A DNA stretch of 36,777 nucleotides, from positions 1-36,777 of the forward strand of contig NZ_SPQN01000045.1 in NCBI RefSeq assembly GCF_004571065.1, read 5' to 3'. Position numbers and translations under genes: made by a program. This DNA is from Geodermatophilus sp. DF01-2. Its GTDB lineage: Bacteria; Actinomycetota; Actinomycetes; Mycobacteriales; Geodermatophilaceae. Positions 28,941 to 33,106 of the stretch are shown one piece after another. How positions within the stretch are numbered: position 1 is the first letter of the stretch; each line of letters starts with the position of its first letter. The notes under the pieces are model-generated. The model was given only the letters and a program-made list of their open reading frames with translations, did no database searches and was not told where the DNA came from.

Positions 28941-29080
28941 TGGGGGCCGAAGGCTCCCGCGAGGATCGACGACAGGGCTCAGCGCGACACGGGGGCGGCA
29001 CCTGGCCGCGGTGTCGTCCGGTAGGACGACGGGGTCAGGCCCGCGGTGTCGTCCGGTGGGACGACGTGTCATCGCTCCTA
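28941..29080 (+). repeat. Family B intergenic element (copy B2, with a duplicated hairpin)
   Basis: Core GGCACCTGGCCGCG (28997-29010), then hairpin GTCGTCC-GGTA-GGACGAC (29013-29030) and a second hairpin GTCGTCC-GGTG-GGACGAC (29048-29065), then TGTCATCG. Compared with B1, GGCC/GGCC pairs have become GTCC/GGAC, a compensating change. It fills the gap between convergent lipB and leuS up to the leuS stop. Confidence 0.7.
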
Positions 29081-31984
29081 ACCGACGACGAAGTTGACCA
29101 GTCGGCCCGGGACGGCGACCACCCGGCGCACGGTCTTCCCGCCCAGGTGGCCGGCGACCTTGTCGTCGGCCCGGGCTGCGGCCTCCAGTGCGGCGGCGTC
29201 GGTGTCCGCCGGCACGGTGACCTGGGCCCGCACCTTGCCGTTGACCTGGACGGCGACCTGCACGGTGTCCTCCACCAGCCACTGCTCGTCGGCCTCCGGG
29301 AACGGCGCCCAGGCCAGGGAGTGCTCGTGCCCCAGCCGCGACCACAGCTCCTCGGCGATGTGCGGAGCCAGCGGCGCGACCATCAGCACCAGCGGCTCGG
29401 CCACCGACCTCGGCACCGGCCGGTCCGCGCCGTAGGCAGCGGTCAGGTGGTTGGTCAGCTCGGTGATCCGGGCGATCGCGATGTTGAACCGCAGCGTCGC
29501 CATCCCGTCCCGGACCCCGGCGATCGTCCGGTGCAGCGCCCGCAGCGTCTCCTCGGACGGCTCCAGACCGTCGGCCGCCCGCACCGCGCCGGTCTCCTCG
29601 TCGACGACCACCCGCCAGATGCGCTGCAGCAGCCGCTGCGAGCCGACGACGGCCTTGGTCTCCCACGGCCGCGACTGCTCCAGCGGCCCGGTCGACATCT
29701 CGTAGACCCGGAAGGTGTCGGCCCCGTACGCGCCGATCATCTCGTCCGGCGTCACCATGTTCTTCAGGCTCTTGCCGATCTTCCCGTACTCCCGGTTGAC
29801 CGGACTGCCCTCGTAGAAGAACCGGCCGTCCTTCTCCTCCACCTCGGCGGCGGGCACGTAGAAGCCGCGCTCGTCGGTGTAGGCGTAGGCGGAGATGTAG
29901 CCCTGGTTGACCAGCCGGCGGAACGGCTCCTCGCTGCTGACGTAACCCAGGTCGAACAGCACCTTGTGCCAGAACCGGGCGTACAGCAGGTGCAGCACCG
30001 CGTGCTCCACGCCCCCGACGTAGAGATCCACGCCGCCGACGTCGCCGTCCTCGCGCGGGCCCAGCCAGTAGCGCTCCAGCTCCGGGTCGACCATCTGCGT
30101 GTCGTCGCCGGGGTCGAGATAGCGCAGGTAGTACCAGCACGACCCGGCCCAGTTGGGCATCGTGTTGGTCTCGCGCCGGTACTTCTTCGGACCGTCGCCC
30201 AGGTCCAGCTCGACGGTCGTCCAGTCCGTCGCCCGGGACAGCGGCGGCTCGGGCACCGAGTCGGCGTCGTCGTCGGCGAACGTCTTGGGCGAGTAGTCGT
30301 CGACCTCGGGCAGCAGCACCGGCAGCATCGAGTCCGGGACGGCGACCGGCAGGTCGTGCTCGTCGTACAGGACCGGGAACGGCTCGCCCCAGTAGCGCTG
30401 CCGGCTGAACAGCCAGTCGCGCAGCTTGTAGGTGGTGGTCGCCTCGCCGTGCCCGTGTGCCACCAGCCAGTCGGCGACGGTGGCGATCGCGGTGGCCTTG
30501 TCCAGTCCGTCCAGCGAGATCTCGTCGTTGGCGGAGTTGATCATCGGGCCGGCGCCGGTGTACGCGCCGCCGTCCCAGTCGGCCGGCGGCTGCACCGTAC
30601 GGACGACGGGCAGCCCGAAGGCCTCGGCGAAATCCCAGTCGCGGGCGTCCTCGCCGGGCACCGCCATGATGGCGCCGGTGCCGTAGCCGGTCAGCACGTA
30701 GTCGGCGACGAACACCGGCAGCTCGCGGCCGTTGACCGGGTTGACCGCGGTGACGCCCAGCCAGACGCCGGTCTTCTCCCGTGCCTCGTTCTGCCGGTCG
30801 AGCTCCGACCGGCGCGACGCCTGCCGCTGGTAGGCCGCGACCGCCTCCCGCGGGGTCGCCGCTCCCCCGGTCCAGCGCGGGTCGGTCCCGTCCGGCCACA
30901 CCTCGGCGGTCAGCGTCCCGACCAGCGGGTGCTCGGGGGCCAGCACCATGTAGGTGGCGCCGAACAGGGTGTCCGGGCGCGTGGTGAAGACCTCGATGGT
31001 CTCGTCGCCGCAGCCGAAGCCGATCCGTGCACCCGTGGAGCGGCCGATCCAGTTGCGCTGCATCAGTTTCAGCGAGTCCGACCAGTCCAGCCGGTCCAGG
31101 TCGGCCAGCAGCCGGTCGGCGTAGGCGGTGATCCGCATCATCCACTGGGTCAGCGGACGCCGGAACACCGGGAAGTTGCCGCGCTCGGACCGGCCGTCGG
31201 GCGTCACCTCCTCGTTGGAGAGCACCGTGCCCAGGCCCGGGCACCAGTTCACCGGCGCCTGGTGCAGGTAGGCCAGCCGGTGCGCGTCGACGACCTTCCG
31301 CTTCTCGACGTCGTCCAACGACACCCACGGGCGACCCGAGGGGTTGGTGCCGGCGGCCGGCTCCCGCGTGCCGGCGTCCAGCTCGGCGACCAGCTCCTCG
31401 ATCCGCCGCGCCTTCCCCGCGGACTCGTCGAACCAGGAGCCGAAGATCTGCAGGAAGATCCACTGGGTCCACCTGTAGTAGCCCGGGTCGATCGTGGCGA
31501 AGCTGCGGCGGTCGTCGTGGTCGACGCCCAGCCGCCGCAGCTGCGCCTTGATGGCGGCGATGTTGGCCTCGGTCGTGATCCGGGGGTGCTGCCCGGTCTG
31601 GACGGCGTACTGCTCGGCGGGCAGGCCGAAGGCGTCGTAGCCCATGGGGTGCAGCACGTTGGCGCCGTCCATGCGGCGGAACCGGCTGGTGACGTCCGTG
31701 CCCAGGTAGCCCAGGGGGTGGCCGACGTGCAGGCCGGCGCCCGACGGGTACGGAAACATGTCCATCACGAAGTACTTGGGCCGATCGGCGACCCGCTCGA
31801 AGCCTTCGGAGAGGCGACCGGCCGGGTTCGGGGTGTGGAACGTCCCCTCGGCCTCCCAGCGGTCCTGCCACGCGAGCTCGATCCGCTGCGCCAGCGCCGG
31901 GGTGTACCGGTGCGGGGGGACGCCCTCGTCCGTGGCGGGGCCGGTCGCCTGCTCGACGCTCGGCTGGTCGGCCGTCTGGCTCAT
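29078..31984 (-). CDS. leuS: Leucyl-tRNA synthetase
   Basis: A 968-residue class Ia synthetase that charges tRNA-Leu. The HIGH motif appears as HVGH (86-89) in [18 protein letters not shown], and KMSKS as KIGKS (735-739) in GKIGKSLKN. An editing domain, the catalytic core with [11 protein letters not shown] and [11 protein letters not shown], and the C-terminal [14 protein letters not shown] are all present. Length is usual for actinobacterial LeuS. AGGAG lies 8 nt before the ATG. About 130 bp of leader upstream contains a three-leucine leader peptide and an intrinsic terminator, so it is very probably controlled by attenuation responding to Leu-tRNA supply. Confidence 0.97.
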
Positions 31985-32032
31985 CGTCGGTGCTCCTGGG
32001 TCCTCGAGGTGCTCGTGCCGGTGGCGGACATC

Positions 32033-32057
32033 AAAAAACCCCTCACGCAGGAGGGGT
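32033..32057 (-). terminator. Intrinsic terminator in the leuS leader (attenuator)
   Basis: On the minus strand ACCCCTC pairs with GAGGGGT across a 6-nt loop and runs into six T residues (plus-strand A33-A38 of 320xx). A T-run of this kind is rare in such GC-rich DNA. It lies about 50 bp before the leuS ATG and after the leader peptide stop. Confidence 0.8.
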
Positions 32058-32058
32058 C

Positions 32059-32093
32059 GCCGTGCTGCCTGGAGGTCTAGCGGTCAGCACGGC
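32059..32093 (-). promoter_or_regulatory. Leader stem 1:2 of the leuS attenuator
   Basis: GCCGTGCTG (minus, 32093-32085), which spans the end of the leader peptide ORF, pairs perfectly over 9 bp with CAGCACGGC (32067-32059). A competing antiterminator can be drawn between CCTC-CAG-GCAG, in the loop and right arm of this stem, and CTGC-GT-GAGG in the terminator. Confidence 0.6.
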
Positions 32094-32119
32094 CGGGCAA
32101 GGAGAAGCCGCCTGGTCAC
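32084..32119 (-). CDS. Leucine-rich leader peptide of leuS
   Basis: An 11-codon ORF reading VTRRLLLARPC followed by TGA. The three consecutive Leu codons are CTT, CTC and CTT; CTT is a rare codon in this GC-rich genome, which would sharpen stalling. A TAGGCT box ends 7 nt before the GTG, so the message probably begins at this start codon and is translated leaderless. A ribosome stalled on codons 5-7 would cover the left arm of the 9-bp stem just downstream. The peptide itself is not expected to have any function. Confidence 0.75.
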   Translation of the reverse strand: MTRRLLLARPC

Positions 32120-32126
32120 GCCCTCG

Positions 32127-32132
32127 AGCCTA
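32127..32132 (-). promoter_or_regulatory. -10 box (TAGGCT) for the leuS leader transcript
   Basis: Minus-strand TAGGCT, 7 nt before the leader-peptide GTG at 32119. Confidence 0.5.
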
Positions 32133-32176: not shown

Positions 32177-33106
32177 TCAGCCCAGCTGGGGCGCCACCTC
32201 GGCGGCGACCAGGTCCAGGTGGTCGAGGTCGGCCAGGTCCAGCACCTGCAGATACGCCCGGGCCGCCCCTGCCGCCTCGTAGCGGCCCAGGACGTCGACC
32301 ACCTCGGCGGGGGTGCCGGCGGCACCGTTGGCCCGCAGGTCGTCGACGTCCCGCCCGATCGCCGCCGCGCGGCGCGCCAGCTCGGCCTCGTCGCGGCCGA
32401 CGCAGAGCACCAGCGCGGAGCTGAACACCATGGACGCCGGGTCGCGGCCGGCGTCGTCACAGGCCGCGCGCACGCGGTCGAACAGCTCGGCGTTCTCCTC
32501 GACCGGGGAGAAGGGCACGTTGAACTCGGCGGCGTGGCGGGCCGCCAGGGCCGGCGTCCGCCGCTTCCCGCGGCCGCCGACGATGATCGGCACGCCGCCG
32601 GGCTGCACGGGCTTGGGCAGCGCCGGCGAGTCGCTGAGCCGGTAGTGCTGCCCAGCGTGGTCGAAGGTCTGCCCCACCGGCGTCGACCACAGCCCGCTGA
32701 CCACCTCGAGCTGCTCCTCGTACCGGTCGAAGCGCTCGCCGAGCGAGGGGAACGGGATGCCGTAGGCGGTGTGCTCGGCCTCGTACCAGCCCGACCCGAT
32801 GCCCAGCTCCACCCGCCCGCCGCTCATCTGGTCGACCTGCGCCACCGAGATCGCCAGCGGGCCGGGCAGCCGGAACGTGGCCGCCGACATCAGCGTGCCC
32901 AGCCGGATGCGGCTGGTCTCGCGAGCCAGCCCGCCCAGGGTCACCCAGGCGTCGGTCGGCCCGGGCAGGCCGTCGCCGCCCATCGTCAGGTAGTGGTCGG
33001 AGCGGAAGAAGGCGTCGAAGCCGGTCTCCTCGGTCCGCCGCGCGACGGCCAGCAGGTCGTCGTAGGTGGCGCCCTGCTGCGGTTCGGTGAAGATGCGTAG
33101 CTGCAC
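32177..33106 (-). CDS. LLM-class F420-dependent oxidoreductase
   Basis: A 309-residue TIM-barrel protein of the luciferase-like monooxygenase superfamily. N-terminal LRIFTEPQQGATYDDLLAVARRTEETGFDAFFRSDHYLT, ISVAQVDQMSGGRVELGIGSGWYEAEH and PIIVGGRGKRRTPALAARHAAEFN are characteristic of the actinobacterial group that uses coenzyme F420 rather than FMN. The substrate cannot be inferred. Start GTG 33106 with a TAGCGT box 6 nt upstream. It lies upstream of leuS on the same strand, but leuS has its own promoter. Divergent from the repeat-protein gene at 33224. Confidence 0.9.
   Translation of the reverse strand: MQLRIFTEPQQGATYDDLLAVARRTEETGFDAFFRSDHYLTMGGDGLPGPTDAWVTLGGLARETSRIRLGTLMSAATFRLPGPLAISVAQVDQMSGGRVELGIGSGWYEAEHTAYGIPFPSLGERFDRYEEQLEVVSGLWSTPVGQTFDHAGQHYRLSDSPALPKPVQPGGVPIIVGGRGKRRTPALAARHAAEFNVPFSPVEENAELFDRVRAACDDAGRDPASMVFSSALVLCVGRDEAELARRAAAIGRDVDDLRANGAAGTPAEVVDVLGRYEAAGAARAYLQVLDLADLDHLDLVAAEVAPQLG

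Follow-up and report, generated by a model that had tools for sequence, protein, structure and literature searches.

How does an actinobacterium match its leucyl-tRNA synthetase to the supply of charged leucine tRNA? The question is raised by the leader of leuS in a 36,777-nucleotide stretch of Geodermatophilus sp. DF01-2 (contig NZ_SPQN01000045.1, positions 1 to 36,777; hereafter the window, meaning the whole stretch analysed). A preliminary description of this DNA had proposed a leucine leader-peptide attenuator before leuS, and the run of Leu codons, a first hairpin (here called P1) and a terminator, all kept in many relatives, support that proposal. From sequence comparison, the leader very probably controls leuS by ribosome-mediated transcription attenuation, in step with the amount of charged leucine tRNA available. 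Leader attenuators of this kind before leuS are already known; what we add is their spread, their codon choice and their geometry.

All the parts named in the preliminary description (TANNNT box, 7-nt spacer, GTG open reading frame (ORF), three Leu codons, 9-bp stem, terminator and six T) are present on the minus strand. In the order of transcription, each with its basis, they are:

32127..32132, minus strand: -10 box TAGGCT, followed by 7 nt (CGAGGGC) and then GTG
32084..32119, minus strand: leader peptide ORF VTRRLLLARPC, GTG start, TGA stop (sequence; related ORFs in relatives)
32099..32107, minus strand: putative sensor codons CTT CTC CTT, Leu-Leu-Leu (sequence)
32085..32093, minus strand: 5' arm of P1, GCCGTGCTG, overlapping the last ORF codons and the stop (folding, pair counts)
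32059..32067, minus strand: 3' arm of P1, CAGCACGGC, adjoining the terminator (folding, counts of the gap between P1 and terminator)
32037..32058, minus strand: predicted intrinsic terminator hairpin, GACCCCTC-CTGCGT-GAGGGGTT (folding, terminator scan, relatives)
32033..32038, minus strand: six-T tract of the terminator (terminator scan, sequence)
31993..31997, minus strand: Shine-Dalgarno-like AGGAG of leuS (sequence)
29078..31984, minus strand: leuS, leucyl-tRNA synthetase, 968 amino acids (TIGR00396, 882.7 bits against a cut-off of 548.4)

The terminator has a 7-bp core, ACCCCTC/GAGGGGT, and is one G-T pair longer. A terminator scan placed two overlapping sites on the leuS strand, against 0.1 expected in shuffled sequences, and the pattern CTNCTNCTT-N6-CCGYGCTGA had a single match in the 4.45-Mb genome, at the leuS leader. 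No Rfam family reached its gathering score in the window. Between 31900 and 32300, Rfam gave three chance-level matches (E 0.5-2.5), none of them a T-box.

To follow the leader among relatives, we assembled two sets of leuS loci. The named-organism set held the best 80 loci among the matches listed, 79 of them with upstream sequence (L013 being without). The order/class set held 119 loci including the window's own, from 90 of 101 genomes in a search of the order plus the 29 best-scoring of 146 further genomes in a search of the class; divergent leuS genes are under-sampled in it, and L181 comes without upstream sequence. Two loci, L011 and L130, apparently represent the same contig. The detector asked for a TAnnnT box, 5-9 nt, and an ATG, GTG or TTG ORF of 5-25 amino acids with LL, and candidates ending in P-R/C or holding LLL were then kept. 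A leader was present in 69 of 79 named-set loci and 82 of 119 order/class-set loci. The same loci also supplied 2292 control windows, each 450 nt long; LLL matched in none of them and LL in 3. Since the first detector itself uses the -10 box, we added a motif-only search, which located leaders by the Leu-run/P1 motif and ignored that box; this found leaders in 130 of 198 loci.

At least one leader was detected in 18 of the 22 families sampled in the order/class set. Every locus carried it in the window's own family (f1, 12/12) and in f15 (11/11), f33 (8/8), f13 (5/5), f34 (4/4), f5 (2/2), f12 (2/2), f9, f14 and f48 (1/1 each). It was present in part of f16 (10/11), f4 (8/11), f2 (8/12), f23 (3/4) and f43 (3/5), and as a single leader in f11 (1/2), f10 (1/3) and f3 (1/5), those of f3 and f11 being doubtful as they have no P1 of 6 bp. 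Among the matches listed, the window's LeuS shares 91% identity with Geodermatophilus siccatus, 87-90% with Blastococcus and 84% with Modestobacter, which puts the genome in or near the Geodermatophilaceae. Of the divergent leuS genes examined within the order, three of seven have a leader. The exact Leu-run/P1/stop pattern gave 13 matches in 246 genomes of the phylum. Ten of them lie, by position, just upstream of leuS; the eleventh (L217), in a genome outside the class, comprises by eye a leader, P1 and a terminator, all complete, ahead of a leuS whose identity is 40%; and for the remaining two (L216, L218) no leuS was found within their 3-kb loci. The same leader type precedes leuS in L168, L170, L172 and L217, where over the matched part the protein shares just 40-47% identity with that of the window; the leader is thus not strictly tied to one synthetase type. 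A looser pattern, CCGYGCTGA-N4-34-AGCRCGGC, matched 142 of 396 genomes at scattered places and was set aside as too unspecific.

The Leu codons are a biased choice. Among 151 leaders the last one is CTT in 137, CTC in 13 and CTG in one, while of the 4894 Leu codons in the leuS genes of the named-set loci with leaders, 0.33% are CTT and 93% are CTG. The minor leucine tRNA with the GAG anticodon reads both CTT and CTC, and minor isoacceptors are commonly the ones whose codons serve as control codons.

In P1, the end of the ORF (GCCGYGC, usually followed by TGA) is paired with GCRCGGC, which immediately precedes the terminator. Its positions 1-6 form standard pairs in all rows counted (145 or 144) and position 7 does so in 139 of 144. 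At position 5 (n=144) the pair is C-G in 103 rows, T-A in 40 and T-G in one. A change of this pair turns Arg into Cys in the peptide, and both forms occur within groups, at C-G to T-A ratios of 7:1 in f2, 1:1 in f5 and 1:3 in Blastococcus of the named set. Because the switch alters the amino acid and occurs within groups, it is the pairing and not the peptide that seems to be kept. The alignment chose the most complementary arm, which biases these counts toward pairing; the place of that arm beside the terminator is separate support. Six of the 151 leaders were dropped from the geometry count (P1 shorter than 6 bp) and six from the pair count, and in a few rows (L015, L118, L125, L141) the script mis-called P1 or the terminator.

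The position of P1 is almost constant. From the last Leu codon to the first P1 pair the distance is 5 nt in 117 of 145 leaders, 4 nt in 17, and from -10 to 19 nt in the other 11; P1 and terminator are separated by -2 to 3 nt in 140 of 145, whereas the loop of P1 varies between 4 and 65 nt (median 22, n=145). In L015, L022, L053, L109 and L197 the stop codon stands just ahead of P1 rather than inside it, and the last Leu codon is still 6 nt from the CCG of P1. The terminators vary in sequence between families and their arms stay complementary; 5-7 T in 7 follow the hairpin in 115 of 145 leaders, the window included.

The preliminary description had also held that the leader ORF begins at the first base of the transcript, and the spacing of the -10 box is in keeping with this. 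Transcription would start at or next to the GTG, to judge by the 7-nt spacing in the window, and among the 130 leaders of the motif-only search, 129 have a TAnnnT box 6-8 nt ahead of an in-frame start, which favours leaderless starts across the group. A two-hexamer scan for a sigma-70-type promoter found none upstream of leuS, the -35 element being weak or absent. Upstream of TAnnnT in the 129 leaders, G stands at -2 in 94% and at -4 in 88%, a possible extended -10 element in a set rich in Streptomyces.

Taken together with this layout, we propose the following sequence of events. A ribosome would load directly on the 5' end of the RNA and read VTRRLLLARPC. When charged tRNA is ample, it would reach the stop codon and cover the 5' arm of P1, and the terminator would form. 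When charged tRNA is short, it would wait on the Leu codons, above all on the rare CTT, and P1, starting 5 nt past CTT, would fold at its front edge. Either by itself or together with a ribosome pressed up to it, P1 would then keep the terminator open and RNA polymerase would read into leuS. A ribosome at the stop codon would lie on the P1 5' arm, and one on the Leu codons would leave that arm free or touch only its base, so that P1 could form in the stalled state and would be excluded in the finished one. It would thus hold the place of the classical antiterminator, and most likely P1 itself opposes the terminator. The direction of switching would agree with a published model for Mycobacterium tuberculosis ilvB1, which in its accessible text has a ribosome at the stop codon mask the antiterminator and a stalled ribosome allow it (PMC13236596).

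How P1 might act is suggested by the spacing. Both of its distances are near-fixed (5 nt; mostly 0-3 nt) while its loop is free (4-65 nt), and the leuS and ilvB leaders of the window genome share a like layout. Tentatively, this would fit a 'bridge' attenuator in which no terminator strand is sequestered; instead, P1 would bring the CTT-stalled ribosome against the terminator, whose hairpin could not close in the exit channel of RNA polymerase. We regard this version as possible rather than probable.

Several observations weigh against an attenuator built around P1. P1 adjoins the terminator without overlapping it, and the scripts that picked both favour complementarity. As a whole, the leader folds with a stability usual for its composition (z -1.35; of 200 shuffles, 18 equalled or exceeded it), and it is therefore conservation rather than energy that carries the case. 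Many of the relatives are Streptomyces, and they do not count as independent cases. No leader was detected in f8 (0/11), f27 (0/5), f32 (0/2) and f7 (0/1), nor in any of three Nocardia leuS loci; the named-set loci without one are these three, Dietzia, Aeromicrobium, Cellulomonas, a Bifidobacterium bin and three other bins. Absence was scored by one detector, which degenerate leaders may escape. The preliminary description had named comparison of related genomes as its check, and the outcome is divided: Leu run, P1 and terminator are kept in many relatives, but four of the 22 families are without a leader. The families f8 and f27, together with Nocardia, form a natural contrast set for leuS regulation. 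Finally, four T or fewer in 7 follow the terminator hairpin in 9 of 11 f15 loci (L137, L138, L142-L144, L150, L159-L161) and in 3 of 3 f43 loci, and termination there may therefore differ. Weak T-tracts are also seen in L014, L016, L018 and L022, which keep leader and P1 and have longer terminator loops, as in the f15 loci.

Alternatively, the leader could be a classical four-segment attenuator, as the preliminary description had it: a Leu-stalled ribosome opens P1, CCTC..GCAG pairs with CTGC..GAGG and the terminator is destroyed. The complementarity does exist (32075-32065 with 32050-32041); antiterminator hairpins have been reported for two Streptomyces (Seliverstov et al.), and pairing between the P1 loop and the 3' side of the terminator has been proposed for the Corynebacterium ilvB-II motif (Narunsky et al.), both according to the accessible parts of these papers. 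The pairing does not, however, behave as proposed. With the ribosome on the last Leu codon of the window, the best terminator-free fold reaches -9.7 kcal/mol against -12.8 kcal/mol for the terminator, which is thus ahead by 3.1 kcal/mol. Only when 12 nt more are covered, about 25 nt past the start of the last Leu codon and with the ribosome near the stop codon, does the terminator-free fold win at -15.7 kcal/mol (L083, z -1.83), which is the wrong state, and the folds of relatives are no better than those of shuffled upstream RNA. Nor is there support for the suggestion that stalling opens the first stem. A ribosome covers some 12 nt beyond its A site. Counted from the start of Leu codons 1, 2 and 3 in the window, the first paired base of P1 lies 14, 11 and 8 nt further on, so that a ribosome would touch P1 mainly when stalled at the third of them, and even there no more than its base.

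Searches for another antiterminator among the relatives were likewise negative. Pairing of the spacer RNA with the terminator 5' arm and loop gave a mean z of +0.17 in 139 leaders (z < -1 in 5.8%), and pairing of the RNA from the edge of the Leu-stalled ribosome with the same segment gave a mean z of +0.89, with z < -2 in 0 of 140. With the terminator forbidden and the ribosome set at each of three positions, folds reached z < -2 in 1 of 139, 0 of 141 and 2 of 127 cases (mean z +1.28, +2.07 and +0.20). Permuting the loops in 59 of 79 distinct rows indicated that loop letters are not tuned to P1 (mean rank 0.60; in two rows the P1 arm was parsed as 2 nt). Two further pairings were considered: that of the P1 3' arm GCRCGG with the terminator loop CTGYGY was rejected, given A-C mismatches in many loops and the loop permutation, and that of the Leu codons with the terminator 3' arm was dropped as having the wrong sign.

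As controls we took Escherichia coli leaders, for which the terminator finder was changed or terminators were given by hand. The trp attenuator resembles the leuS leader in its leader ORF, control codons and intrinsic terminator, but differs by strong pairing of upstream RNA with the terminator 5' arm (trpL, -9.3 kcal/mol, z -2.5; another run z -3.5), where in the leuS leader none is detectable and P1 only adjoins. In the same test thrL gave -8.0 kcal/mol (z -1.4), hisL -12.2 kcal/mol (z -2.8 over the nearest 40 nt, -0.8 and +1.5 over the whole spacer) and leuL -8.4 kcal/mol (z -1.8 over the whole spacer, +0.4 over the nearest 40 nt). All four E. coli leaders thus fall at or below -8 kcal/mol at one of two boundaries, and thrL was the sole control to reach z -2 in the terminator-forbidden fold test. 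Because the tests detect these controls in part, the negative is moderate and not absolute, and overall we consider the classical four-segment arrangement unlikely.

The weak T-tracts could instead mean that the two hairpins act as a barrier rather than as an intrinsic terminator, with control being Rho-dependent, translational or exerted on RNA stability. The f15 and f43 loci described above, and some others, keep leader and P1 with four T or fewer, which would fit such a barrier, whereas 5-7 T in 7 are the rule among the relatives and are present in the window. There the T-run ends about 35 nt upstream of AGGAG, which leaves the ribosome site of leuS outside the hairpin. This reading seems quite improbable to us.

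Lastly, there is the gene next door:

32177-33106, same strand as leuS: F420-dependent oxidoreductase gene (TIGR03560)

Its gap to leuS is 192 bp and its end lies 44 bp upstream of the -10 box, but that the terminator mainly separates this gene from leuS, the leader having no regulatory role, is hardly credible, because rare CTT, near-fixed spacing and a co-varying P1 are kept in many families and before divergent leuS.

Returning to the proposed P1-based attenuator, we asked whether other operons have leaders of like layout. In the window genome the ilvB leader (L237, contig C172, upstream of 17267) consists, by eye, of the ORF VRPACLLLVVA and TAG, a hairpin whose first pair is about 5 nt past the last Val codon, and a terminator 1-2 nt further on; by eye, this is similar to the leuS leader. 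Thirteen ilvB loci of the family passed the cut-off, and their leaders, again by eye, show control codons, one codon and TAG (in 8 of the 9 inspected), then a hairpin, with the terminator some 1-3 nt beyond it. A scan for a TAnnnT box ahead of the ilvB leader starts found none. For trpE in the family, a scan for Trp runs found no leader in the 11 loci examined out of 13.

The published systems closest to the window's leader, described here from the accessible parts of each source, are those of Streptomyces. Classical attenuators were predicted before leuS in S. avermitilis and S. coelicolor in 2005 (PMC1262725), and in 2021 a leaderless leuL2 with the peptide MRAVRLLLSEPR, followed by a hairpin and a uridine stretch, was described before leuS in S. 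lividans TK24 (PMC8079986). The preliminary description's remark that such a leader is less usual for a tRNA synthetase is thereby overtaken. The Streptomyces leaders share with ours a short Leu-run ORF (leaderless in S. lividans) directly upstream of leuS and, after the Leu run, one or more hairpins and a terminator with a T-run; many of the Streptomyces leaders in our survey likewise encode MRAVRLLLSEPR. The window's leader differs in starting with GTG, in its run CTT CTC CTT, and in having a Cys (TGC) in place of an Arg (CGC) codon, with P1 compensated. As in trp-type attenuators, its control codons match the regulated pathway, a conserved Leu run enriched in a rare codon before leuS, and an intrinsic terminator stands between leader ORF and gene.

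More distant likenesses are found in leaders of amino-acid biosynthesis. The ilvB-II motif of Corynebacterium, which has P1 and P2 hairpins (PMC10272879), and M. tuberculosis ilvB1 (PMC13236596) have an upstream ORF with control codons and an intrinsic terminator downstream, and in the ilvB-II motif the first hairpin P1 is mostly spanned by that ORF (PMC10272879). In ilvB1, changing LVVI to AAAA abolished induction in a reporter (PMC13236596). These leaders differ in that they sense branched-chain amino acids and control ilvB, and their proposed antiterminators are described as excluding the terminator, whereas for leuS no conserved overlapping antiterminator was found. The LEU element of actinobacterial leuA also has a Leu-run leader ORF, but uses a pseudoknot and Shine-Dalgarno pairing and serves another gene (PMC1262725). 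The accessible text of PMC4833913 makes no mention of leuS. In the accessible literature, supplements and subscription papers aside, we came across neither the CTT bias nor the fixed geometry, nor any leuS leader described beyond Streptomyces.

Leucine leaders of leuS, described for Streptomyces in the accessible literature, are now seen in 18 of 22 sampled families, as well as in a single genome from a different class of the phylum, and almost all share one geometry. An old prediction thereby becomes directly testable, both as to the RNA state that counteracts the terminator and as to a role of the rare CTT in setting sensitivity. If the proposal is true, a hairpin that opposes termination by adjoining the terminator rather than overlapping it would be a new variant of the textbook mechanism.

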